Shown in pieces: positions 7,143 to 47,420 of a stretch of DNA of 64,000 nucleotides; within the stretch, counting starts at the first letter, position 1, and each line of letters opens with the position of its first letter. The position numbers and the translations under genes are program-made. Source of the DNA: Neoarius graeffei (taxonomy: Eukaryota; Chordata; Actinopteri; Siluriformes; Ariidae); assembly GCF_027579695.1 (NCBI RefSeq), contig NC_083578.1, forward strand, positions 2,952,460 through 3,016,459, in the 5' to 3' direction. Under the pieces are notes generated by a model. The model was not told the DNA's origin, made no database searches, and was given only the letters and a program-made list of their open reading frames with translations.

Positions 7143-7519
7143 CTCATCTCATCTCATTATCTGTAGCCGCTTTATCCTTCTACAGGGTCGCAGGCAAGCT
7201 GGATCCTATCCCAGCTGACTACGGGTGAAAGGCGGGGTTCACCCTGGACAAGTCGCCAGGTCATCACAGGGCTGACACATAGACACAGACAACCATTCAC
7301 ACTCACATTCACACCTACGCTCAATTTAGAGTCACCAGTTAACCTAACCTGCATGTCTTTGGACTGTGGGGGAAACCGGAGCACCCGGAGGAAACCCACG
7401 CGGACACGGGGAGAACATGCAAACTCCACACAGAAAGGCCCTCGCCGGCCACGGGGCTCGAACCCAGGACCTTCTTGCTGTGAGGCGACAGCGCTAACCA
7501 CTACGCCACCGTGCCGCCC
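7143..7519 (-). mobile_element. tRNA-derived SINE, TGAGA-tail family, complete
   Basis: On the minus strand it starts GGCGGCACGGTGG, carries RNA polymerase III boxes A (GTAGTGGTTAGCGCTGTCG) and B (GGTTCGAGCCC), and ends in ATGAGATGAGATG. It is flanked by a 12-bp duplication TCCTAGCCACAT (7131-7142 and 7520-7531). It is inserted in the Harbinger element. Confidence 0.93.
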
Positions 7520-8077: not shown

Positions 8078-8461
8078 CTCATCTCATCTCATCTCATTAT
8101 CTGTAGCCGCTTTATCCTGTCCTACAGGGTCGCAGGCGAGCTGGATCCTATCCCAGCTGACTACGGGCGAAAGGCGGGGTTCACCCTGGACAAGTCGCCA
8201 GGTCATCACAGGGCTGACACATAGACACAGACAACCATTCACACTCACATTCACACCTACGCTCAATTTAGAGTCACCAGTTAACCTAACCTGCATGTCT
8301 TTGGACTGTGGGGGAAACCGGAGCACCCGGAGGAAACCCACGCGGACACGGGGAGAACATGCAAACTCCGCACAGAAAGGCCCTCGCCGGCCCCGGGGCT
8401 CGAACCCAGGACCTTCTTGCTGTGAGGCGACAGCGCTAACCACTACACCACCGTGCCGCCC
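8078..8461 (-). mobile_element. tRNA-derived SINE, TGAGA-tail family, complete
   Basis: Full-length minus-strand copy, very similar to the one at 7143. It is flanked by an 11-12 bp duplication CACTTGGAAAT(C) at 8067 and 8462. It splits the transposase remnant of the Harbinger element. Confidence 0.93.
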
Positions 8462-14534: not shown

Positions 14535-14912
14535 CTCATCTCATCTCATTATCTCTAGCCGCTTTATCCTGTTCTACAGGGTCGCAGGCAAGCTGGATCC
14601 TATCCCAGCTGACTACGGGTGAAAGGCGGGGTACACCCTGGACAAGTCGCCAGGTCATCACAGGGCTGACACATAGACACAGACAACCATTCACACTCAC
14701 ATTCACACCTACGCTCAATTTAGAGTCACCAGTTAACCTAACCTGCATGTCTTTGGACTGTGGGGGAAACCGGAGCACCCGGAGGAAACCCACGCGGACA
14801 CGGGGAGAACATGCAAACTCCACACAGAAAGGCCCTCGCCGGCCACGGGGCTCGAACCCAGGACCTTCTTGCTGTGAGGCGACAGCGCTAACCACTACAC
14901 CACCGTGCCGCC
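14535..14912 (-). mobile_element. tRNA-derived SINE, TGAGA-tail family, complete
   Basis: Full-length minus-strand copy with polymerase III boxes and TGAGA tail. Perfect 14-bp duplication CTTATGATGAATAT at 14521-14534 and 14913-14926, about 300 bp upstream of the first rsph14 coding exon. Confidence 0.94.
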
Positions 14913-14926
14913 CTTATGATGAATAT

Positions 14927-16402: not shown

Positions 16403-16784
16403 CTCATCTCATCTCATTATCTGTAGCCGCTTTATCCTGTTCTACAGGGTCGCAGGCGAGCTGGATCCTATCCCAGCTGACTACGGGCGAAAGGCGGGGT
16501 ACACCCTGGACAAGTCGCCAGGTCATCACAGGGCTGACACATAGACACAGACAACCATTCACACTCACATTCACACCTACGCTCAATTTAGAGTCACCAG
16601 TTAACCTAACCTGCATGTCTTTGGACTGTGGGGGAAACCGGAGCACCCGGAGGAAACCCACGCGGACACGGGGAGAACATGCAAACTCCGCACAGAAAGA
16701 CCCTCGCCGGCCCTGGGGCTCGAACCCAGGACCTTCTTGCTGTGAGGCGACAGTGCTAACCACTACACCACCGTGCCGCCCCAT
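16403..16784 (-). mobile_element. tRNA-derived SINE, TGAGA-tail family, complete
   Basis: Full-length minus-strand copy with a 9-bp duplication GTGCAATAT (16394-16402 and 16785-16793), inserted in the L2-like LINE 3' UTR. Confidence 0.92.
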
Positions 16785-21176: not shown

Positions 21177-21639
21177 TTGGAGCTGGACTTTGGCAATGAA
21201 ATCTGAGAAGTTGATGCGAGTTATCAGAGGACTCGCGGACTGCTGTCGTTGCTGTCAGATTGAAGTTCCGCGGCGTTCAGACGGCTGGTACACACTCCTG
21301 GGGAACCGGGTTATTTTCGGACTCTGTGTTGGCTGGATGTCAGTAATGCTCAGACTGCAGCTTTGTACCAGATCACTTACACACACGGACTTGGACACAT
21401 AACGCCTCCGTACACACGACTTATACAGGTCATAAATCTCTTCCATATAATGTTATAGAAATGAGAAAGCAGGGGTTGTTCGGTTGTTCCTTGCTCAACA
21501 AAATTATGTTTTGATGTTTGATCACTCGCACCTTTAAATGTGGAGTAAATTTCCAACAATGTTTAGTTGGGGAAAACAAACTTCAGAAAATGCCATCAAA
21601 CTCCAAAACTGTGAAACTATAACCACGATGAGTGTTACG

Positions 21640-21905
21640 CCTTTCCCGTCTGCGTCTCCAACCGCCACGCCTTTCCCGTCTGCGTCTCCAACCGCCACGC
21701 CTTTCCCGTCTGCGTCTCCAACCGCCACGCCTTTCCCGTCTGCGTCTCCAACCGCCACGCCTTTTCCGTCTGCGTCTCCAACCGCCACGCCTTTTCCGTC
21801 TGCGTCTCTAACCGCCACGCCTTTTCCGTCTGCGTCTCTAACCGCCACGCCTTTCCCGTCTGCATCTCTAACCGCCACGCCTTTCCCGTCTGCATCTGTA
21901 ATTGT
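21640..21905. repeat. Minisatellite, 30-bp unit, about nine copies
   Basis: The unit CGCCTTTCCCGTCTGCGTCT plus CCAACCGCCA repeats with few substitutions, mainly C/T changes. The unit length is a multiple of three and stop-free, so both strands stay open: plus repeats TPFPSASPTA, minus repeats a Gly/Lys/Asp-rich decapeptide. It lies about 0.5 kb upstream of the phosphatase start. Confidence 0.93.
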
Positions 21906-21989
21906 TCTGCTTGTTCCATCCCTTTCTATCAGCATCTGCCGTGTAACCGTTATGTCTCTCCTGTCTCATCTCTCCATCCATAACTCTTA

Positions 21990-22510
21990 CACCCGTTACG
22001 GTGCCACTACAATGTTTGTGAAGCTTTTACACTTTTCTGTATTTCTGCATAAAATCGGACCTGCTCAGTTCCAAGTCCTAAAACTAGATCACGAGAACCC
22101 AAATTAAACAAACGACTCAAAACCCTTATCGTGGTATATAATCCTTTACATACTCAAAAACTTTACATTTATTTATTCAACAAAATTTTCCAACATTCAA
22201 TATGTTTCTCAGAAACGTATGTAAACTTTTGCTTATAACTTCAACCAAACGTTTCTGGTAACAGGTGATCGATCCTGAAGAATGGAGTTGGAGGACTTCT
22301 GGCCCACTCCCCTGTATGAAACTGCTTCAGCTCTGATGACGCTGAGCTCCCTGACAGGAACCGAGAGCTCGGCCGTGGCACACGTCCATAAACCTGTGGA
22401 CTGAAGACCAGACTGACAGTGAAGACCGACCCAAGTTCTGAAAACGTGACCGTGCTGCTAAAGTCACGCCTGACTGCCATCCGCTTGCTTCGACACCTGG
22501 CTTTCATTCC
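21990..22510 (-). mobile_element. Ancient relic of the family A Tc1 element
   Basis: Line-by-line resemblance to the right side of the copies at 49719 and 59907: GTATTTCTGCATAAAAT, AAGTCCTAAAACTAGAT, CATTTATTTATTCAACA, AAACGTTTCTGGTAAC and TTGGAGGACTTCTGGCCC. Divergence is high and the inner part is lost, so this is a much older insertion of the same lineage. Confidence 0.65.
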
Positions 22511-28797: not shown

Positions 28798-31700
28798 ATG
28801 AATTACATGCCGGGGACAGCCAGCCTCATTGAGGACATTGACAGTAAGATTAATTAATTTAGGATTTTTTTAAAAGTTATTTTATTGCTTTAATATCCAA
28901 GAGGCAGCCGGCCTTGTGTTTACTGTGTGTTTTTCTGTAATTCTGTGTAAATATCAGCGAATGTTCTGGAAGCAGAAATGCAAGAAGAGCATGAAAGTGT
29001 GACTAAAAGTCACCATGTTGATATAATCTCTCACATAAATCTGTAAAGATACACAAACAAGACCTGTTATTGTTGGCGGAAATGACGTCACAGTTGCCTA
29101 ATTAATCAGGCGTCTATAATTTCAGTTTTAATTTTTTGCATCAAACTGAAAAACAGTTATAAATCGATTCATGTGTCTTTTACTTGCCAGTTTTCAGGTT
29201 GGAAAAAAAATGTTGATCGCTGCAGGTCATGTTGTTGGAGAGAATGAATCAACACCTCCTGACCAATCAGAAGCCGGAATTTAACAAGCGTACTCCAGTG
29301 TATTAGTGTTAATACACTACACTGTTAGTTCAGGATTAGTGATGTGAGGGGGCTGTCAGGATATCGTGCAGGCTGATAAAAGATTCCTCAAGGTTTGATG
29401 TTGTGGTCTTTACTGCTCTCAAAACTGAGGTTTTTTTTTCTCTTCTTTGCTTTTCCAGAGAAGCACCTTGTTCTGCTGAGAGATGGGCGAACGCTGATCG
29501 GGATCCTCCGGAGCATAGATCAGTTCGGTATGACTTCTCAAGCAGAAGCGTGCAGTTAGTGTTTCCTCAGAGCAGATAAATGACTCTGACGGGTTCGGTC
29601 AGGTGACCATCGCAGCTAAAGCTGATGTCATGGATATTGTTAGGATTTAAATGTTATTAGCTGTCTGAGAGTAAAGAGCGATTACACTGAGCTCAGATGC
29701 AGTCTGTGTTTTTATTTGTACCACCCCGATTCCAAAAAAGTTGGGACAAAGTACAAATTGTAAATAAAAATGGAATGCAATAATTTACAAATCTCAAACT
29801 GATATTGTATTCACAATAGAACATAGACAACATATCAAATGTCGAAAGTGAGACATTTTGAAATTTCATGCCAAATATTGGCTCATTTGAAATTTCATGA
29901 CAGCAACACATCTCAAAAAAGTTGGGACAGGGGCAATAAGAGGCTGGAAAAGTTAAAGGGACAAAAAAGGAACAGCTGGAGGACCAAATTGCAGCTCATT
30001 AGGTCAATTGGCAATAGGTCATTAACATGACTGGGTATAAAAAGAGCATCTTGGAGTGGCAGCGGCTCTCAGAAGTAAAGATGGGAAGAGGATCACCAAT
30101 CCCCCTAATTCTGCGCCGACAAATAGTGGAGCAATATCAGAAAGGAGTTCGACAGTGTAAAATTGCAAAGAGTTTGAACATATCATCATCTACAGTGCAT
30201 AATATCATCAAAAGATTCAGAGAATCTGGAAGAATCTCTGTGCGTAAGGGTCTCGTCTCGTCTTCTTCCGCTTTATCCGGGACCAGGTCGCGGAGGCAGC
30301 AGTCTAAGCAGGGAAGCCCAAACTTCCCTCTCCCCAGACACCTCGGCCAGCTCCTCGGGAAGAACACCGAGGCGTTCCCAGGCCAGCCGAGAGACATAGT
30401 CCCTCCAGCGTGTCCTGGGTCTTCCCCGGGGCCTCCTCCCGGGGGGACATGCCTGGAACACCTCCCCAGGGAGGCGTTCAGGAGGCATCCGAAAAAGATG
30501 CCCAATCCACCTCAGCTGATTCCTCTCGATGTGGAGCAGCAGCGGCTCTACTCCGAGCTCCTCCCGAGTGACTGTGCTTCTCACCCTATCTCTAAGGGAG
30601 CACCCAGCCACCCTGCGAAGGAAACTCATTTCGGCCGCTTGCATCCGCAATCTTGTCCTTTCGGTCATTACCCAAAGCTCATGACCATAGGTGAGAGTCG
30701 GAACGTAGATTGACCGGTAAAGCGACCGCATTACTGCGGAGGCTGCACCGATCCGCCTGTCGATCTCACGCTCCATCCTTCCCTTACTCGTGAACAAGAT
30801 CCCGAGATACTTAAACTCCTCCACTTGAGGCAGAACTTCTCCACCAACCTGGAGAGGGCAAGCCACCCTTTTCCGGTTGAGAACCATGGCCTCAGACTTG
30901 GAGGTGCTGATTCTCATCCCAGCCGCTTCACACTCGACTGCAAACCGCCCCAGTGCATGCTGAAGGTCCTGGTTTGAAGAAGCCAATAGGACAACATCAT
31001 CTGCAAAAAGTAGAGATGAAATCCTGTGGTTCCCAAACAGGATTCCTTCTGGCCCCTGGCTGCACCTAGAAATTCTGTCCATAAAAATTATGAACAGAAC
31101 CGGTGACAAAGGGCAGCCCTGCCGGAGTCCAACATGCACTGGGAACAGGTCTGACTTACTGCCGGCAATGCGAACCAGACTCCTGCTCCGTTCGTACAGG
31201 GACCGGACAGCCCTTAGCAAAGAGCCCCGAACCCCATACTCCCAAAGCACCCCCCACAGAATACTATGGGGGACACGGTCGAATGCCTTCTCCAGATCCA
31301 CAAAGCACATGTGAACTGGTTGGGCAAACTCCCATGAACCCTCGAGCACCCTATGAAGGGTATAGAGCTGGTCCAGTGTTCCGCGACCAGGACGAAAACC
31401 GCATTGTTCCTCCTGGATCCGAGGTTCGACTATTGGTTGAATTCTCCTCTCCAGTACCCTGGAGTAAACCTTCCCTGGGAGGCTGAGAAGTGTGATTCCC
31501 CTATAATTGGAGCACACACTCCGGTCCCCTTTCTTAAAAAGAGGGACCACCACCCCAGTCTGCCACTCCAGAGGCACTGTCCCTGACCGCCACGCAATGT
31601 TGCAGAGGCGTGTCAACCAAGACAGCCCCACAACATCCAGAGACTTGAGATACTCAGGGCGGATCTCATCCACCCCCGGTGCCTTGCCACCGAGGAGCTT

Positions 31701-34700
31701 GCAAACCACCTCAGTGACTTCGGCTTGGGTAATGGACGAATCCACTTCTGAGTCATCAGCCTCAGTCTCCTCAGTGGAAGACATGACGGTAGGATTGAGG
31801 AGATCCTCAAAGTATTCCTTCCACCGCCCGACAATGTCCCCAGTCGAGGTCAACAGCTCCCCACCTGCACTGTAAACAGTGTTGGCAGAGTACTGCTTCC
31901 CCCTCCTGAGGCGCCGGACGGTTTGGCAGAATTTCTTCGAGGCCGACCGATAGTCCTTCTCCATGGCCTCCCCGAACTCCTCCCAGTTCCAAGTTTTTGC
32001 CTCCGCAACTGCCCGAGCTGCAGCACGCCTGGCCTGCCGATACCCGTCAGCTGCCTCGGGAGTCCTGGAGGTTAACATGGCCCGATAGGACTCCTTCTTC
32101 AGCTTGACGGCATCCCTTACTTCCGGTATCCACCACCGGGTTTGGGGATTGCCGCCACGACAGGCACCGGAGACCTTGCGGCCACAGCTCCGAACAGCTG
32201 CGTCCACAATGGAGGTAGAGAACATGGTCCACTCAGACTCAATGTCCCCCGCCTCCCTCGGAAGCTGGGAAAAGCTCTCCCGGAGGTGGGAGTTAAAGAC
32301 CTCCCCAACAGAGTGCTCGGCCAGACGTTCCCAGCAGACCCTCACCATACGTTTGGGCCTGCCAGGTCTGTCCAGCTTCCTCCTCCGCCAGCGGATCCAA
32401 CTCACCACCAGGTGGTGATCAGTTGACAGCTCAGCCCCTCTCTTCACCCGAGTGTCCAAGACATAGGGCCGGAGATCAGATGAAACGACTACAAAGTCTA
32501 TCATCGACCTCCGACCTAAGGTGTCCTGGTGCCACGTGCACTTATGGACACCCCTATGCTCGAACATGGTGTTCGTTATGGACAAACCGTGACTAGCACA
32601 GAAGTCCAATAACAAAACACCACTCGGGTTCAGATCGGGGAGGCCGTTCCTCCCAACCACGCCCCTCCAGGTGTCACTGTCATCGCCCACGTGAGCATTG
32701 AAGTCCCCCAGTAGCACAATGGAGTCCCCAGTCTGAGCACTCCTCAGTACCTCTCCCAGGGACTCCAAGAAGGCCGGATACTCTATACTGCTATTTGGGC
32801 CATAGGCACAAACAACAGCAAGAGCCCTCTCCCCAATCCGAAGGCGCAGAGAGGCGACCCTCTCGTTCACTGGGGTAAACTCCAACACATGGCAGCTGAG
32901 CTGGGGAGCTATAAGCAAGCCCACACCAGCCCGCCGCCGCTCACCACGGGCGACTCCAGAGAAGTGGAGAGTCCAGCCCCTCTCGAGGAGCTGGGTTCCA
33001 GAGCCCAAGCTGTGCGTGGAGGTGAGCCCGACTATCTCTAGCCGGTACCTCTCAACCTCCCGCACAAGCTCAGGCTCTTTCCCCCCCCAGCGAAGTGACA
33101 TTCCATGTCCCAACAGCCAGCCGCTGTGTCCGGGGATCAGGTCGTCGAGGCCCCTGCCTTCGACTGCCACCCAATCCACATTGCACCAGTCCCCTACTGC
33201 TACCTCTGTGGGTGGTGAACCCACAGGAGGTCGGGCCCACGTCACCTCTTCGGGCTGAGCCCGGCCGGGCCCCATGGGCAAAGGCCCGGCCACCAAGCGC
33301 TCGCATACGAGCCCCGACCCCGGGCCTGGCTCCAGGGTGGGGCCTCGGCTGCATCATCCCGGGCGACGTCACGGTCCTCAGATTTTTCTCCATAGGGGTT
33401 TTGGTGAACTGCTCTTAGTCTGGCCTGTCACCTAGGATCTGTCTGCCTTGGGAAACCCTAACAGGGGCATAATGCCCCCGACAACATAGCTCCTCGGATC
33501 ATTCAAGCACACAAACCCCTCCACCAAAATAAGGTGGCAGTTCTAGGAGGGGGTGCGTAAGGGTCAAGGCCGGAAAACCATACTGGGTGCCCGTGATCTT
33601 CGGGCCCTTAGACGGCACTGCATCACATACAGGCATGCTTCTGTATTGGAAATCACAAAATGGGCTCAGGAATATTTCCAGAGAACATTATCTGTGAACA
33701 CAATTCACCGTGCCATCCGCCGTTGCCAGCTAAAACTCTATAGTTCAAAGAAGAAGCCATATCTAAACATGATCCAGAAGCGCAGACGTCTTCTCTGGGC
33801 CAAGGCTCATTTAAAATGGACTGTGGCAAAGTGGAAAACTGTTCTGTGGTCAGACGAATCAAAATGTGAAGTTCTTTATGGAAATCAGGGATGCCGTGTC
33901 ATTCGGACTAAAGAGGAGAAGGACGACCAGAGTTGTCATCAGCGCTCAGTTCAGAAGCCTGCATCTCTGATGGTATGGGGTTGCATTAGTGCGTGTGGCA
34001 TGGGCAGCTTACACATCTGGAAAGACACCATCAATGCTGAAAGGTATATCCAGGTTCTAGAGCAACATATGCTCCCATCCAGACGACGTCTCTTTCAGGG
34101 AAGACCTTGCATTTTCCAACATGACAATGCCAAACCACATACTGCATCAATTACAGCATCATGGCTGCGTAGAAGAAGGGTCCGGGTACTGAACTGGCCA
34201 GCCTGCAGTCCAGATCTTTCACCCATAGAAAACATTTGGCGCATCATAAAACGGAAGATACGACAAAAAAGACCTAAGACAGTTGAGCAACTAGAATCCT
34301 ACATTAGACAAGAATGGGTTAACATTCCTATCCCTAAACTTGAGCAACTTGTCTCCTCAGTCCCCAGACGTTTACAGACTGTTGTAAAGAGAAAAGGGGA
34401 TGTCTCACAGTGGGAAACATGGCCTTGTCCCAACTTTTTTGAGATGTGTTGTTGTCATGAAATTTAAAATCCCCTAATTTTTCTCTTTAAATGATACATT
34501 TTCTCAGTTTAAACATTTGATATGTCATCTATGTTCTATTCTGAATAAAATATGGAATTTTGAAACTTCCACATCATTGCATTCCGTTTTTATTTACAAT
34601 TTGTACTTTGTCCCAACTTTTTTGGAATCGGGGTTGTACACACACATACACGATTCATTTCTTCATCATAAAATTATCAAGCAAGAACAGATCCACTTTA

Positions 34701-36027
34701 AAGGAACTCTCCATCTTGAAGCAGATTTAACGAGCGTATAAGCAAATATTTTCGGTGTGTTAAGAGAGACACATGCACACACTCAGTGTTGCTTTTCATT
34801 AGTAAGATGAGGACACCACGCTACACTGAAAATTAAAACCTTCACTGCATCACTTAAGTGAAGACACTCGGCAGGAGATTGTGTTTATTAATTAAATGTA
34901 AAAGTCGTGAATGTAATTTTGTACCGGATTCCATTTCAGTGTCATCACCGTGTTGCAAACGTGCCACACTGAAATGCAGTCACTGTTGTAATTGGAGGTG
35001 CGAGGAAGGAGCTGGAAGTGAGACGAGTCCCGGCAATGTTATTCTGGTTGATTTATTGACTCGTACTTGCAGCATTAAACACTCTAATGACATCTCATAT
35101 CATTATCTGTAGCCGCTTTATCCTGTTCTACAGGGTCGCAGGCGAGCTGGATCCTATCCCAGCTGACTACGGGCGAAAGGCGGGGTTCACCCTGGACAAG
35201 TCGCCAGGTCATCACAGGGCTGACACATAGACACAGACAACCATTCACACTCACATTCACACCTACGCTCAATTTAGAGTCACCAGTTAACCTAACCTGC
35301 ATGTCTTTGGACTGTGGGGGAAACCGGAGCACCCGGAGGAAACCCACGCGGATACGGGGAGAACATGCAAACTCCACACAGAAAGGCCCTCGCCGGCCCC
35401 GGGGCTCGAACCCGGACCTTCTTGCTGTGAGGCGACAGCGCTAACCACTACACCACCGTGCCGCCCGACTCTAATGACTTGATAACTAAAATCATGTTGC
35501 GTTCGTGTCACGTCAGAATTCTGTAATCCGATTTCTTCAAACCTCACCTGAGAAAGTCAGTCAGTGTTAAACATTTCTTCTGTGAGAAAACTATATTTTT
35601 TTTCCGTCCTGAACTCCTCGTTCTCGGCTCTCCAACAGCTAACCTGGTTCTGCACCAAACAGTGGAACGGATCCACGTCGGTAAAAAATTCGGAGACATC
35701 CCTCGAGGGATCTTCGTGGTCCGAGGGGAGAACGTGGTCCTGCTCGGAGAAGTCGTGAGTGCAGGCTTACTTATTTATTGTGGGTTTTTTTTTTTCTTTT
35801 TTCCCCTGTAGATTTGATTATTGATTGAATCGTTGCTCTGCTTTGCTTTGCCGTAGGATCTGGATAAAGACTGCGATCAGATCCTGCAGAGAGTCTCCAT
35901 CGAGGAGATCCTGGAGGAGCAGCGGGTGGAGCAGCAGGCCAAGCAGGAGTCCGAGCGTCTGAAGCTGCAGGCGGTGAAGGAGCGAGGGTTATCCATCCCC
36001 AGAGCAGACACACTCGACGACTTCTGA
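28798..36027 (+). CDS. lsm1: U6 snRNA-associated Sm-like protein LSm1
   Basis: Four exons: 28798-28843, 29459-29527, 35639-35754 and 35857-36027. GT-AG borders and matching phases (1, 1, 0) predict 133 aa, exactly the human length. It starts [20 protein letters not shown]. Sm1 motif: [24 protein letters not shown] split over exons 2-3. Sm2 motif: [17 protein letters not shown]. The charged C-terminal helix ([19 protein letters not shown]) ends in ADTLDDF. LSm1 caps the cytoplasmic LSm1-7 ring which, with Pat1, binds oligoadenylated mRNA 3' ends and promotes decapping in P-bodies. Intron 2 (6.1 kb) is inflated by a Tc1-like transposon containing a LINE, and by a SINE. It shares a promoter with bag4. 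Sequence and length make the call secure. Confidence 0.97.
30253..33552 (-). mobile_element. RTE-like LINE, essentially full length
   Basis: 3.3 kb on the minus strand, bounded by the perfect 13-bp duplication GTGCGTAAGGGTC (30240-30252 and 33553-33565). It has a short 5' UTR, one long ORF (endonuclease plus reverse transcriptase) and an extremely short 3' UTR of about 20 bp: the stop TAA lies within GGATAAAGCGG, followed by AAGAAGACGAGACGAGAC. A single ORF, tiny 3' UTR and simple-repeat tail fit the RTE group (Rex3/Expander-like in fish). The clade is inferred from architecture. Confidence 0.9.
30273..33393 (-). CDS. LINE ORF: AP endonuclease and reverse transcriptase
   Basis: 30273-33296 is open for 1007 codons. 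Endonuclease motifs: [22 protein letters not shown] and [10 protein letters not shown]. Reverse transcriptase: [62 protein letters not shown] and the catalytic [13 protein letters not shown]. The C-terminal region has [21 protein letters not shown] and ends LLPPRPGPG. The first endonuclease motif, [13 protein letters not shown], lies in the next frame (33070-33393). The switch is at an eight-C run (33081-33088); seven would join the frames. About 18 residues usual between SLYRS and IYVPTL in related fish elements appear absent, from memory. Otherwise it looks intact. Confidence 0.9.
34639..35080. other. lsm1 intron 2, unremarkable stretch
   Basis: AT-rich intronic DNA between the Tc1 element and the SINE. 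No coding or repeat signal beyond a short (CA)n at 34637-34650. Confidence 0.5.
35092..35467 (-). mobile_element. tRNA-derived SINE, TGAGA-tail family, in lsm1 intron
   Basis: Full-length copy in opposite orientation to lsm1. The 11-bp duplication ACTCTAATGAC sits at 35081-35091 and 35468-35478. Its tail reads ATAATGATATGAGATG. It is located only about 170 bp before exon 3. Confidence 0.93.
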
Positions 36028-41640: not shown

Positions 41641-42073
41641 GTTTTTTAAAGCTTTTTGTTCGTGTCTTTACAACGAAGCACTGCAAGTTGAAGTGTAAAC
41701 AAACACCAGTTGGCTTGATTCTCACTTGTGTTGGCTCTTATCTCTCAGCTAAATCATTCACAGAGATCATCAGAAACCCCTTTAAAGACCTGGATCTTTA
41801 AAGATCCAGAAGAATTTTGTTGCGACTTGCATGCATACGGACTTTGTGAGGAGTGAACAAAGAAACAGCTGGGGACTTTAGCGCTTCATGACTAAAAAAG
41901 TACCGTAAAATAGCGAGACATAGCAAGAAAAATACTTGGAAAACACTCAGGACAGAGCTGAGAGGGAAATACAAACCTTTCACCAAGTGATCACTGCAAA
42001 CTCCAGCACGCTTCAACTCAGCTCCCTTCGATTTCAGTCAGAGGTTTAAAAGCCACCTTTCTTTACGTCTTTT

Positions 42074-42429
42074 TAAGAAGAAGAAGAAACCTTTATTTGT
42101 CACATGCACACTGAGATTCATCCTTTGCATTTAACCCACCTGAAGCAGTGAACACACACACACTCAGAGCAGTGGGCAGCCACACCAGAGCGCCTGGGGA
42201 GCAGTCAGGGGTTCGGTACCTCACTCAAGGGCACCTCAGCCCAAGGCCGCCCCACGTCAACCTAACTGCATGTCTTTGGGGGAAACTAGAGCACCCAGAG
42301 GAAACCCACACAGACACAGGGAGAACATGTAAACTCCACACAGAAAGGCCCTCGCCGGCTGCTGGGTTCGAACCTGGAACCTTCTTGCTGTGAGGCGGCC
42401 GTGCTAACCACTACACCACCATGCTGTCC
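42074..42429 (-). mobile_element. SINE of the CTT-tail family
   Basis: The minus-strand head has GTAGTGGTTAGCACGGCCGC and box B GGTTCGAACCC. The body shares its first half with the TGAGA-tail SINE. The tail is GTGACAAATAAAGGTTTCTT followed by (CTT)n. It is inserted in the ISL2EU-like element. Confidence 0.9.
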
Positions 42430-42777
42430 GGTAGATGTGAAATCCTGTGTTCATTCACCCTTTTTTATTAGTTCACAGGGAACCCTGAAGAAACTTTTAT
42501 CAGTTTCACGGTTTGATCGATTCGAACAACGCAAGCGTAAGGCATTTTTCATGCGAGCAATGAACCTTCTCCATACAAATGCTTTGTCAACTGAGCTTTG
42601 GTAGACCACCAGCTAAAGTTCTGAATAACTAATGAGGCGGATGTGACGTCACGTGAAACCCAGCAATACATTCACGACTTAAAGATAAACTTTGTATCTT
42701 CGTGTCACTGTGTAACATCCTCTATTTACTTATTCAGGTGACATTGGGCATACCTAACAACCTGTGTTCCCCCCCCC

Positions 42778-44589: not shown

Positions 44590-44620
<31 letters not shown>

Positions 44621-44633
44621 TTTCCCCTTTTTG
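43930..44633 (+). promoter_or_regulatory. Promoter / 5' UTR region of the GRK gene
   Basis: A (GA)n at 43936-43957, CpG-rich DNA near 44310-44340 (CAGCGCGCGCGGC), trinucleotide tracts (TCC, TTC, ATC) at 44092-44200, (TTTC)n at 44442-44490 and (TC)n at 44594-44620 precede the ATG. No TATA box is evident. The transcription start cannot be placed. Confidence 0.5.
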
Positions 44634-44685
44634 ATGGAGCTAGAGAACATCGTTGCTAACACGGTGCTCCTTAAAGCCAGAGAGG
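44634..44685 (+). CDS. First coding exon of a G protein-coupled receptor kinase (GRK5/6)
   Basis: Encodes MELENIVANTVLLKAREG, interrupted after the first base of the Gly codon by the donor GTAAGT. This is the exact N-terminus shared by vertebrate GRK5 and GRK6 (GRK4 differs slightly). The N-terminal helix docks on activated receptors and stabilises the closed kinase conformation. These kinases phosphorylate agonist-bound GPCRs at the plasma membrane and lead to arrestin binding. Exon 2 (expected GGGGxRKGKSKKWKE) was not found before 64000, so intron 1 exceeds 19 kb, in line with the very long first intron known in GRK5. The exon alone cannot separate grk5 from grk6. Confidence 0.85.
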
Positions 44686-44814
44686 GTAAGTGCACACATT
44701 TCTGGTGTATTTTTCGGTCTCGGTGTTGTGCTTTGAGTGTTCCGGTGTCGGTCCGGTTCGGTTCTTCCAGCATGCAGGGATGGAGGACAGGATCAGAAGC
44801 TGGAGAAGGGTGAG

Positions 44815-45680
44815 GGTGAGAGTGGAGGGTGAGGGTGTTGGGTGAGAGTGAGGGTGAGAGTGGAGGGTGTTGGGTGAGGGTGAGAGTGTTGGGTGAGGGT
44901 GAGAGTGTTGGGTGAGGGTGAGAGTGGAGGGTGAGGGTGAGGGTGTTGGGTGAGAGTGGAGAGTGAGGGTGAGAGTGTTGGGTGAGGGTGAGAGTGGAGA
45001 GTGAGGGTGAGAGTGGAGAGTGAGGGTGAGAGTGGAGAGTGAGGGTGAGAGTGGAGGGTGAGGGTGAGAGTGTTGGGTGAGGGTGAGAGTGTTGGGTGAG
45101 GGTGAGAGTGGAGGGTGAGGGTGAGAGTGTTGGGTGAGAGTGGAGAGTGAGGGTGAGAGTGTTGGGTGAGAGTGGAGGGTGAGGGTGAGAGTGTTGGGTG
45201 AGGGTGAGAGAGGAGGGTGAGGGTGAGAGTGTTGGGTGAGGGTGAGAGAGGAGGGTGAGGGTGAGAGTGTTGGGTGAGGGTGAGAGTGGAGAGTGAGGGT
45301 GAGAGTGTTGGGTGAGGGTGAGAGTGGAGAGTGAGGGTGAGAGTGTTGGGTGAGGGTGAGAGTGGAGAGTGAGGGTGAGAGTGTTGGGTGAGGGTGAGAG
45401 TGGAGAGTGAGGGTGAGGGTGAGAGTGTTGGGTGAGGGTGAGAGTGGAGAGTGAGGGTGAGAGTGTTGGGTGAGGGTGAGAGTGGAGAGTGAGGGTGAGG
45501 GTGAGAGTGTTGGGTGAGGGTGAGAGTGGAGAGTGAGGGTGAGAGTGGAGAGTGAGGGTGAGAGTGGAGGGTGAGGGTGAGAGTGTTGGGTGAGGGTGAG
45601 AGTGGAGAGTGAGGGTGAGAGTGTTGGGTGAGGGTGAGAGTGGAGGGTGAGAGTGTTGGGTGAGGGTGAGAGTGGAGAAG
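44815..45680. repeat. G-rich minisatellite in GRK intron 1
   Basis: About 870 bp built of GTGAGGGTGAGAGTGGAGA and GTGAGGGTGAGAGTGTTGG alternating modules, giving higher-order units of about 37-38 bp with patchy homogenisation. Strand asymmetry is strong (almost no C on plus). The repeat starts about 130 bp after the exon 1 donor. A 406-codon minus-strand frame (Ser/His/Pro/Leu/Thr repeats) is only a by-product. Confidence 0.93.
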
Positions 45681-45880
45681 GTTACAGGGTTCAGTGAAAA
45701 GCCGGGATGAAGGGGGCGGAGCCGCTCGGATACAGTGTAGCTATCAGTGCGCGCGCGGCTGGAAACTGTTTCCCCTGTTTCAGTCACTTCAAAGCAACAG
45801 ACAGCGCGCACGCTTAAACCTCAACATCAATCAGACTGAAGGTGGAACCTGTTTAACACACTGTACAGCACTGCGCGCGC

Positions 45881-45913
<33 letters not shown>

Positions 45914-46700
45914 ATCCATTTTATATGTGAGTGTGTTAAAGAAATGGGAGCTGGACACCACTACTCCTCACACAACACAACACAGGCCCAATACAGCTTT
46001 GTGTGTGTGTGTGTGTGTGTGTGTGTTGTACAAACCCAGGACACATTCCGTAATATTGTAAAGACAGAAAACAAAGAAAGCCCTGCTCACTAATATCACC
46101 ACTAAAGCCACAATAACCACTACTTCCTGTAACTGAGGCCTCCACACAGCCATCACCTCCCTACCTCCCTCCCTACCTCCCTCCCTCCCTCCCTACCGTA
46201 CACCTACATTACACACATTCACTCAGCATCTCATTCACTGCCTTACCATTCTCCATGTGTGTGTTAAAGACAACCTCAGAGCAGCGTTCACATGCAAAGT
46301 GTTAGATCAGTGTTATTGACCAGGGGTTTTACACTAACATGCTAATCTGCTTCGATGTGATGTCACACCATCAGATCACACACACACACACGGGCAGGTT
46401 TATATCTTTGCATATCTTTGCACGTTGGTCAAAAAGAGGATAAAATATGAATGGAGTAGGTGAAGGGTGATATTTCAAACATGCTCATCAGCATGGTTTT
46501 TGGTTCAGGTGTTCTGTGATGGACCGGGTTTACACAGGACGCAAATTCATCAGTTCATCCCACGGTTGTGAAATAAGAACTCGGCATCAGAGATTGAACC
46601 GTTGTAGGTTGTTAACATGATCGCATGATCACGCTGCTGGTGATTTTTACCAAGAAGAAGAAGCACGTTGACGTTTTACCATTTGATTTAAAAAGTCTTT
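45681..46700. other. GRK intron 1, simple repeats and unique DNA
   Basis: CpG-rich spot near 45740, (GT)n at 45884-45912 and 46003-46026, and CTCC/CTAC tetramers at 46156-46200. No exon recognised. Confidence 0.5.
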
Positions 46701-46703
46701 TTT

Positions 46704-47042
46704 TTTTGAAGAAACCTTTATTTGTCACATGCACACTTCAAGCACAGTGAAATTCATTCTCTGCATTTAACCCATCTGAAGCAGTGAACACACACACACA
46801 CACACAATCAGAGCAGTGGGCAGCCACAGGTTCGGTACCTCACTCAAGGGCACCTCAGCCCAAGGCCGCTCCATGTCAACCTAACTGCATGTCTTTGGGG
46901 GAAACCGGAGCACCCGGAGGAAACCCACGCAGACACAGGGAGAACATGCAAACTCCACACAGAAAGGCCCTCGCCGGCCGCTGGGTTCGAACCTGGAACC
47001 TTCTTGCTGTGAGGCGACCGTGCTAACCACTACACCACCGTA
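46704..47042 (-). mobile_element. SINE of the CTT-tail family
   Basis: The minus-strand head has GTAGTGGTTAGCACGGTCGC and box B GGTTCGAACCC. The tail is GTGACAAATAAAGGTTTCTT. About 25 bp of body (around box 'gagcgcctgg' of the other copies) are missing. Confidence 0.9.
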
Positions 47043-47420
47043 CCTACAGGTCTTGGTGTTGGAACGGCATTATAGAGAGATACAAGTTGTTAACATGTTA
47101 GCATGCTAAACATGTTGATGGTTGGACATCAGACCATCAAATTGGTGCGCTAACCTTACAGATCAGATTTATATCTCAGCACGTTTAACTGTCTTGAAAG
47201 TTTTTTTAACAGATGAAACTCAAAACAAGTTAAAATGTGCAACTGACACTGAAGCTGTTACAGGGTTATAGTATAGTTATAAGGTACACCATCACTTTGG
47301 GTGTAAGCATGCTAATGGTGGTCAGGGAGGTTTTGTGTGAACTGTAAAATGTGTCAAAAATGAAACTCATTTGTCGTTTGTAGGTTTTAAGACATTATGA
47401 TGGTGTGTGTGTTTATATAT
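47043..47420. other. GRK intron 1, no feature seen
   Basis: Unique-looking AT-rich sequence without coding or repeat structure. Confidence 0.5.

Follow-up and report, generated by a model that had tools for sequence, protein, structure and literature searches.

RTE-clade LINEs and their SINEs share an insertion signature, Tn-TA, in which a T stretch about 10 nt upstream and a further T precede a target-site duplication that begins with A (as described in the relevant section of PMC13295347), and this 2026 paper states that the signature remains to be elucidated in species such as fish. The teleost LINE Rex3 is related to the RTE family and ends in a GATG tail, according to the passage on Rex3 in PMC3728117. 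The portion of the review PMC6274825 devoted to Rex3 places its stop codon 3 nt before two GAA repeats that are followed by a tandem repeat, with GCG between stop and repeats in Xiphophorus, and gives the repeat unit as GATC in the text and GATG in a figure legend. According to this review, the discoverers of Rex3 also suggested that it had a place in how SINEs originated. For V-SINEs, the rows consulted of Table 1 in PMC3747384 (2013) name CR1/L2-type LINEs and named shark and lungfish LINEs as partners, and none of RTE type.

We analysed a 64,000-nucleotide stretch of Neoarius graeffei DNA (the window), in which a LINE and an abundant SINE had been annotated from the letters alone as sharing a 3' tail. 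The coordinates of both elements are collected in Table 1. The LINE end, on minus strand 30291-30253, reads GCGACCTGGTCCCGGATAAAGCGGAAGAAGACGAGACGA. Compared by blastn coordinates with most other fetched copies that span the place, the window copy lacks about 54 bp, and the inserted letters were read in copy L018. Its frame finds its best solved relatives among LINE-1 ORF2p structures (E 1e-36). The copy sits inside a Tc1-like DNA transposon extending over about 29700-34480 (outer limits by eye), and parts of a Tc1-like transposase flank it on the plus strand, with HTH domains at 30027-30713 and a DDE_3 domain at 33553-34467. Elsewhere in the window, a tandem array of mostly 19-bp spacing (44591-45811) holds a repetitive minus-strand frame of 406 aa, and a 30-bp tandem repeat (21538-22107) holds a repetitive frame of 189 aa.

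Table 1. Positions in the window of the LINE, the SINEs with a similar tail and the SINE-containing stretches with other tails.
Feature	Position	Strand	Details
LINE copy, putative Rex3/RTE type	30253..33552	-	~3.3 kb, 5' end complete; blastn vs fetched copies; RVT_1 and Exo_endo_phos
Single ORF, endonuclease and reverse transcriptase	30273..33296	-	1007 codons; ORF and domain matches
TAA stop of the 1007-codon frame	30275-30273	-	falls within shared tail
LINE shared tail block	30253..30291	-	GCGACC...GGATAAAGCGG...(GACGA)n; sequence, alignment
Target-site duplication at LINE 3' end	30240..30252	+	GTGCGTAAGGGTC, 13 bp
Target-site duplication, second copy, at LINE 5' end	33553..33565	+	
SINE	7143..7519	-	GGATAAAGCGG-(GATGA)n tail; 12-bp duplication
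SINE	8079..8461	-	GGATAAAGCGG-(GATGA)n tail; 12-bp duplication
SINE	14535..14913	-	GGATAAAGCGG-(GATGA)n tail; 14-bp duplication
SINE	16403..16781	-	GGATAAAGCGG-(GATGA)n tail; 9-bp duplication
SINE	35092..35466	-	GGATAAAGCGG and altered GATGA-type repeat; 11-bp duplication
Stretch with SINE, similar head, other tail	42050..42520	-	GACAAATAAAGGTTTCTTCTTC; internal contrast
Stretch with second SINE	46680..47130	-	tail GACAAATAAAGGTTTCTTC

Endonuclease and reverse transcriptase lie in one open frame, as expected for an element of the Rex3/RTE kind, and the LINE end is ordered as stop, GCG, two GAA and terminal tandem repeat. It occurs in a two-A form, TAA-GCG-GAAGAA-(GACGA)n, with L085 reading GATGAA, and in a three-A form, TAA-A-GCG-GAAGAA-(GACGA)n. 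The Rex3 repeat unit GATG was found in none of the 38 LINE loci inspected, window copy L009 included, in all of which the repeat begins with GACGA, and the LINE is therefore named Rex3-type rather than Rex3 itself. Its architecture, read against the published description, suggests a Rex3-type member of the RTE clade. The position of the stop inside the tail is a trait already known for LINEs of the Rex3 kind, since the Rex3 portion of PMC6274825 puts the stop there.

The five complete SINEs with this tail end in GCGACCCTGTAGAACAGGATAAAGCGGCTASAGATAATGAGATGAG or a close variant of it. By eye, their head carries TGGTGTAGTGG and GGTTCGAGCCC, which resemble internal promoter boxes, and with this putative tRNA-like head and a candidate central domain of the superfamily the element is one that we take to be V-SINE-like. 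The window also holds four SINEs whose similar tRNA-like head is joined to another, presumably L2-like tail, in which GACAAATAAAGG precedes a TTC-rich stretch.

The central observation of the first-pass annotation, a 3' tail shared by LINE and SINE, was borne out, as GGATAAAGCGG is present in both elements and their tail alignment exceeds all controls. The exact word matches six times in the window, always on the minus strand, in the five SINEs and the LINE. Allowing up to two mismatches raises the count to 16, where chance alone would give 9.8, and only the exact matches are therefore informative. A local alignment of the 59-60 nt LINE tail (commonest form) and SINE tail scored 22. When the LINE tail was shuffled 2000 times with its dinucleotides preserved, the highest score was 14, and among 636 windows from the LINE body it was 12. 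The block is not uniform: GCGACC and GGATAAAGCGG are exact, but these two blocks total only 17 bases, the terminal pentamer is similar only, being (GACGA)n in the LINE and (GATGA)n in the SINE, and the flanking stretches differ, with CGGTCCC (commonest LINE form) versus CTGTAGAACA between the exact blocks and AAGAAG versus CTASAGATAA after them. The statement that all complete SINEs end alike is somewhat too broad: three of five carry exact GCGACCCTGTAGAACAGGATAAAGCGG, the copy at 7167 lacks CA, the copy at 8107 has GTAGGACA, and in the copy at 35113 the repeat start is altered to AATGATATGAG. The LINE stop does lie inside the shared block, as had been noted.

Both tails are family features of their elements, not peculiarities of the window. 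In the 2.34-Gb assembly (38 contigs), a 27-base pattern for the SINE tail matched at 146,249 places and one of 30 bases for the LINE end at 8,189, each with at most two mismatches, and each reversed control gave 0. Comparison of many copies thus extends the annotated tails to the whole genome, with the qualification that one LINE subfamily reads GGATAAGCGG instead, so that a three-A form (GGATAAAGCGG) and a two-A form (GGATAAGCGG) are distinguished. The three-A form was present in 30 of 30 LINE loci, the window copy among them, from a set ranked by identity (98-100%) across a stretch of 306-308 bases in which the tail itself was counted (40 of 1087 candidates scored). A second set of eight loci was chosen without regard to the letters after GGATAA. 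Here, two loci (L083, L084) are three-A, with AGCGG after GGATAA, one (L079) is mutated to AGTGG, and five (L080, L081, L082, L085, L086) are two-A, with GCGG, although L080 and L081 look like one duplicated copy.

The SINE has both forms as well. Among 18 SINE bodies selected without the tail, 14 are three-A, five of them being the window copies, two are clearly two-A (L020, L026), one is decayed and two-A-like (L101) and one is without a tail (L044). (GATG)n is the terminal repeat of the two-A SINEs and also of one three-A SINE (L032), and it is the older-looking copies that combine GGATAAGCGG with (GATG)n. An apparent extra tail class, CGGCTGGGATGAGAATCAGC (eight matches), was read as sequence within the LINE body and left uncounted; apparent compensatory changes in the older SINE tails L020 and L101 resemble CpG decay by eye and were likewise left uncounted. 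As separate observations on these loci, L075/L076 and L080/L081 are pairs on contig C1 whose members, separated by tens of kb, have near-identical flanks, which suggests segmental duplication, and the 5' ends of LINE copies L027 and L038 consist of an inverted LINE piece resembling twin priming, for which L080/L081 were flagged too.

Insertion sites provide a second line of comparison between the elements and supply the strongest of the new evidence. LINE duplications were sought in 30 near-identical young copies (29 loci and the window copy), and 22 of them have one of at least 11 bp, including L017 and L034, which were kept although they lie within simple repeats, while eight have none. For the SINE, 35 copies were taken, the majority of which came from one end of contig C1 and had been selected by their three-A tail, and neither set samples the copies at random. 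Of the 35, 30 are flanked by a duplication of at least 8 bp and five have none; when flanks were mismatched, such a duplication appeared in 63 of 1190 pairs. The duplications of GATGA-tail SINEs are regular, at 9-16 bp. An earlier finder kept 30 copies for the SINE profile, and dropping one duplicate left 29.

The preference noted for comparison in the first-pass annotation turned out to be the same profile in both elements. In the 22 LINE insertions, T occupies −11, −10 and −9 in 18, 14 and 15 cases, the first duplicated base is A in 15, and −1 is a pyrimidine in 18 (T alone in 13). In the 29 SINE insertions, the corresponding T counts are 19, 22 and 14, with A as first duplicated base in 20 and a pyrimidine at −1 in 21 (T alone in 13). 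The excess of T at the strongest position has a one-sided binomial p of 6e-6 for the LINE and 5e-6 for the SINE, assuming a background T of 0.34 and with no correction for choice of position, and T at −9 shows no significant excess in the SINE profile (p 0.08, n=29). The two profiles correlate at 0.72, and no value above 0.49 arose when positions were shuffled 2000 times. The LINE and SINE insertions thus show the upstream T stretch and the A-first duplication, with T or C at −1, and their profile resembles the RTE Tn-TA signature.

In RNA folding, both short tails adopt one topology. Shuffling of the inner segment gave the same topology in 1504 of 2000 cases for the LINE and in 682 of 2000 for the SINE, and in a longer context the LINE tail prefers another fold. 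Because shuffled segments often give this topology and the LINE folds differently in longer context, we keep a fold common to both tails only as an idea, as something possible in the folding model.

Combined with the tail alignment, the insertion profile favours, with a probability of about 0.83, a reading in which a tRNA-headed, V-SINE-like SINE, similar over its terminal ~50 nt to the 3' end of a Rex3-type LINE, is copied by the protein of this LINE at T-run/A sites. The earlier proposal that the SINE has taken its 3' end from the LINE copying it is supported by the shared tails and the common target-site profile. Given the Tn-TA-like target sites and a LINE end like that published for Rex3, an RTE/Rex3-type LINE is the most likely mobiliser on sequence grounds. 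In the mechanism that we propose, the LINE protein would recognise the tail on LINE RNA and SINE RNA alike and would nick DNA about 10 bases downstream of the T run, before A. Reverse transcription would then be primed at the nick, copying from the repeated pentamer end, and a SINE with a similar tail would be copied in trans. We infer that this LINE family, rather than a close relative, donated the tail; its protein would bind the shared block, and its coding end would double as the recognition tail.

It is unlikely, though far from negligible, that the true partner is a related RTE/Rex3 LINE family, older or unsampled, that matches more of the SINE tail, the LINE described here being its cousin. 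Pointing that way, the CTASAGATAATGAG that follows the core in the SINE is absent from the LINE, and older-looking SINEs combine GGATAAGCGG with (GATG)n, the published Rex3 repeat, while the 38 LINE loci have GACGA. Against it, the 77 distinct exact cores in the sampled sequence, which was mostly chosen by these very tails, divide into 38 SINE, 36 LINE and three others. These three (L005, L016, L026) were considered as a third element and rejected: they are tails of about 35 nt, the sequence directly upstream of which resembles neither LINE protein nor any further part of the SINE, and are best read as probable 5'-truncated SINEs.

We consider it very improbable that an L2- or CR1-clade LINE moves the SINE, as for other V-SINEs, with the likeness to an RTE tail being a relic or chance. 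The partners given in the V-SINE rows consulted of PMC3747384 Table 1 would fit such an arrangement, as would the occurrence in the window of similar-head SINEs with a GACAAATAAAGG(TTC)n-like tail. However, the GATGA-tail SINEs show the RTE-type profile together with regular duplications, whereas a duplication of at least 8 bp was found in none of the four TTC-tail SINEs (one had 7 bp), a sample so small that it proves little. Least probable of all is a chance resemblance of two unrelated GC-rich ends, for the shortness of the exact blocks is outweighed by a score that none of the 2000 shuffles and none of the 636 LINE-body windows attains, by a match placed at both 3' ends and by similar insertion profiles.

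The tail variants permit a further suggestion that we hold tentatively, at somewhat less than even odds: the LINE and SINE tails may have changed in step within one genome, and the SINE head may have passed between two LINE machineries, the insertion signature switching with the tail. The first part is suggested because GGATAAGCGG and GGATAAAGCGG occur in both elements and both now carry a pentamer (GACGA/GATGA). The tetramer GATG would then be ancestral, as seen in the older SINE copies and, for the Rex3 ancestor of the LINE, by inference. The second part follows from the V-SINE-like head being found with the L2-like TTC tail too, which would mean that one head was handed from one LINE machinery to another.

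Tail sharing between SINE and LINE is a known principle, and the pair itself is new within the literature searched: neither it nor a fish Tn-TA signature was found in a partial search that included the string GGATAAGCGG and V-SINEs with Rex3, or in the sections consulted of PMC2996927, PMC3899998, PMC6951006 and PMC4746887. For how a reverse transcriptase chooses its RNA, pairs of a SINE and a LINE offer the clearest test that nature provides. With more than 100,000 SINE tail places and thousands for the Rex3-type LINE, the present pair would offer an example of Tn-TA in fish, for which PMC13295347 calls the signature unknown. The co-existence of tail variants in both elements makes tail-enzyme co-evolution testable within one genome.

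Members of the V-SINE superfamily (DANA, HE1, Lun1) resemble the SINE described here in having a LINE-derived 3' tail and, putatively, in a tRNA-like head and a central domain. They differ in their partners, which in the V-SINE rows consulted of Table 1 of PMC3747384 are L2/CR1-type or shark and lungfish LINEs, while the tail here is RTE-type. Similarly, zebrafish ZfL2-1 and ZfL2-2 are stringent LINEs that illustrate the same principle of a LINE protein acting on its cognate 3' tail RNA, but they belong to the L2 clade and their tail binding was demonstrated experimentally, according to the part of PMC4176376 dealing with them, whereas binding in the present pair is proposed from likeness. The Bov-B LINE/Sauria SINE pair and the RTE/SINE pairs of plants and horse share with ours an RTE-type common 3' end and Tn-TA, as the passages on these pairs in PMC13295347 describe, and differ in hosts and tails. 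Closest to the LINE is Rex3 of teleosts, which, in the Rex3 sections of PMC6274825 and PMC3728117, likewise has endonuclease and reverse transcriptase, a stop a few nt before GAA repeats, a short tandem-repeat tail, 5' truncations and short target duplications. By contrast, the LINE described here has the pentamer GACGA in place of GATG, and in one of its subfamilies an additional A separates the stop from GCG.
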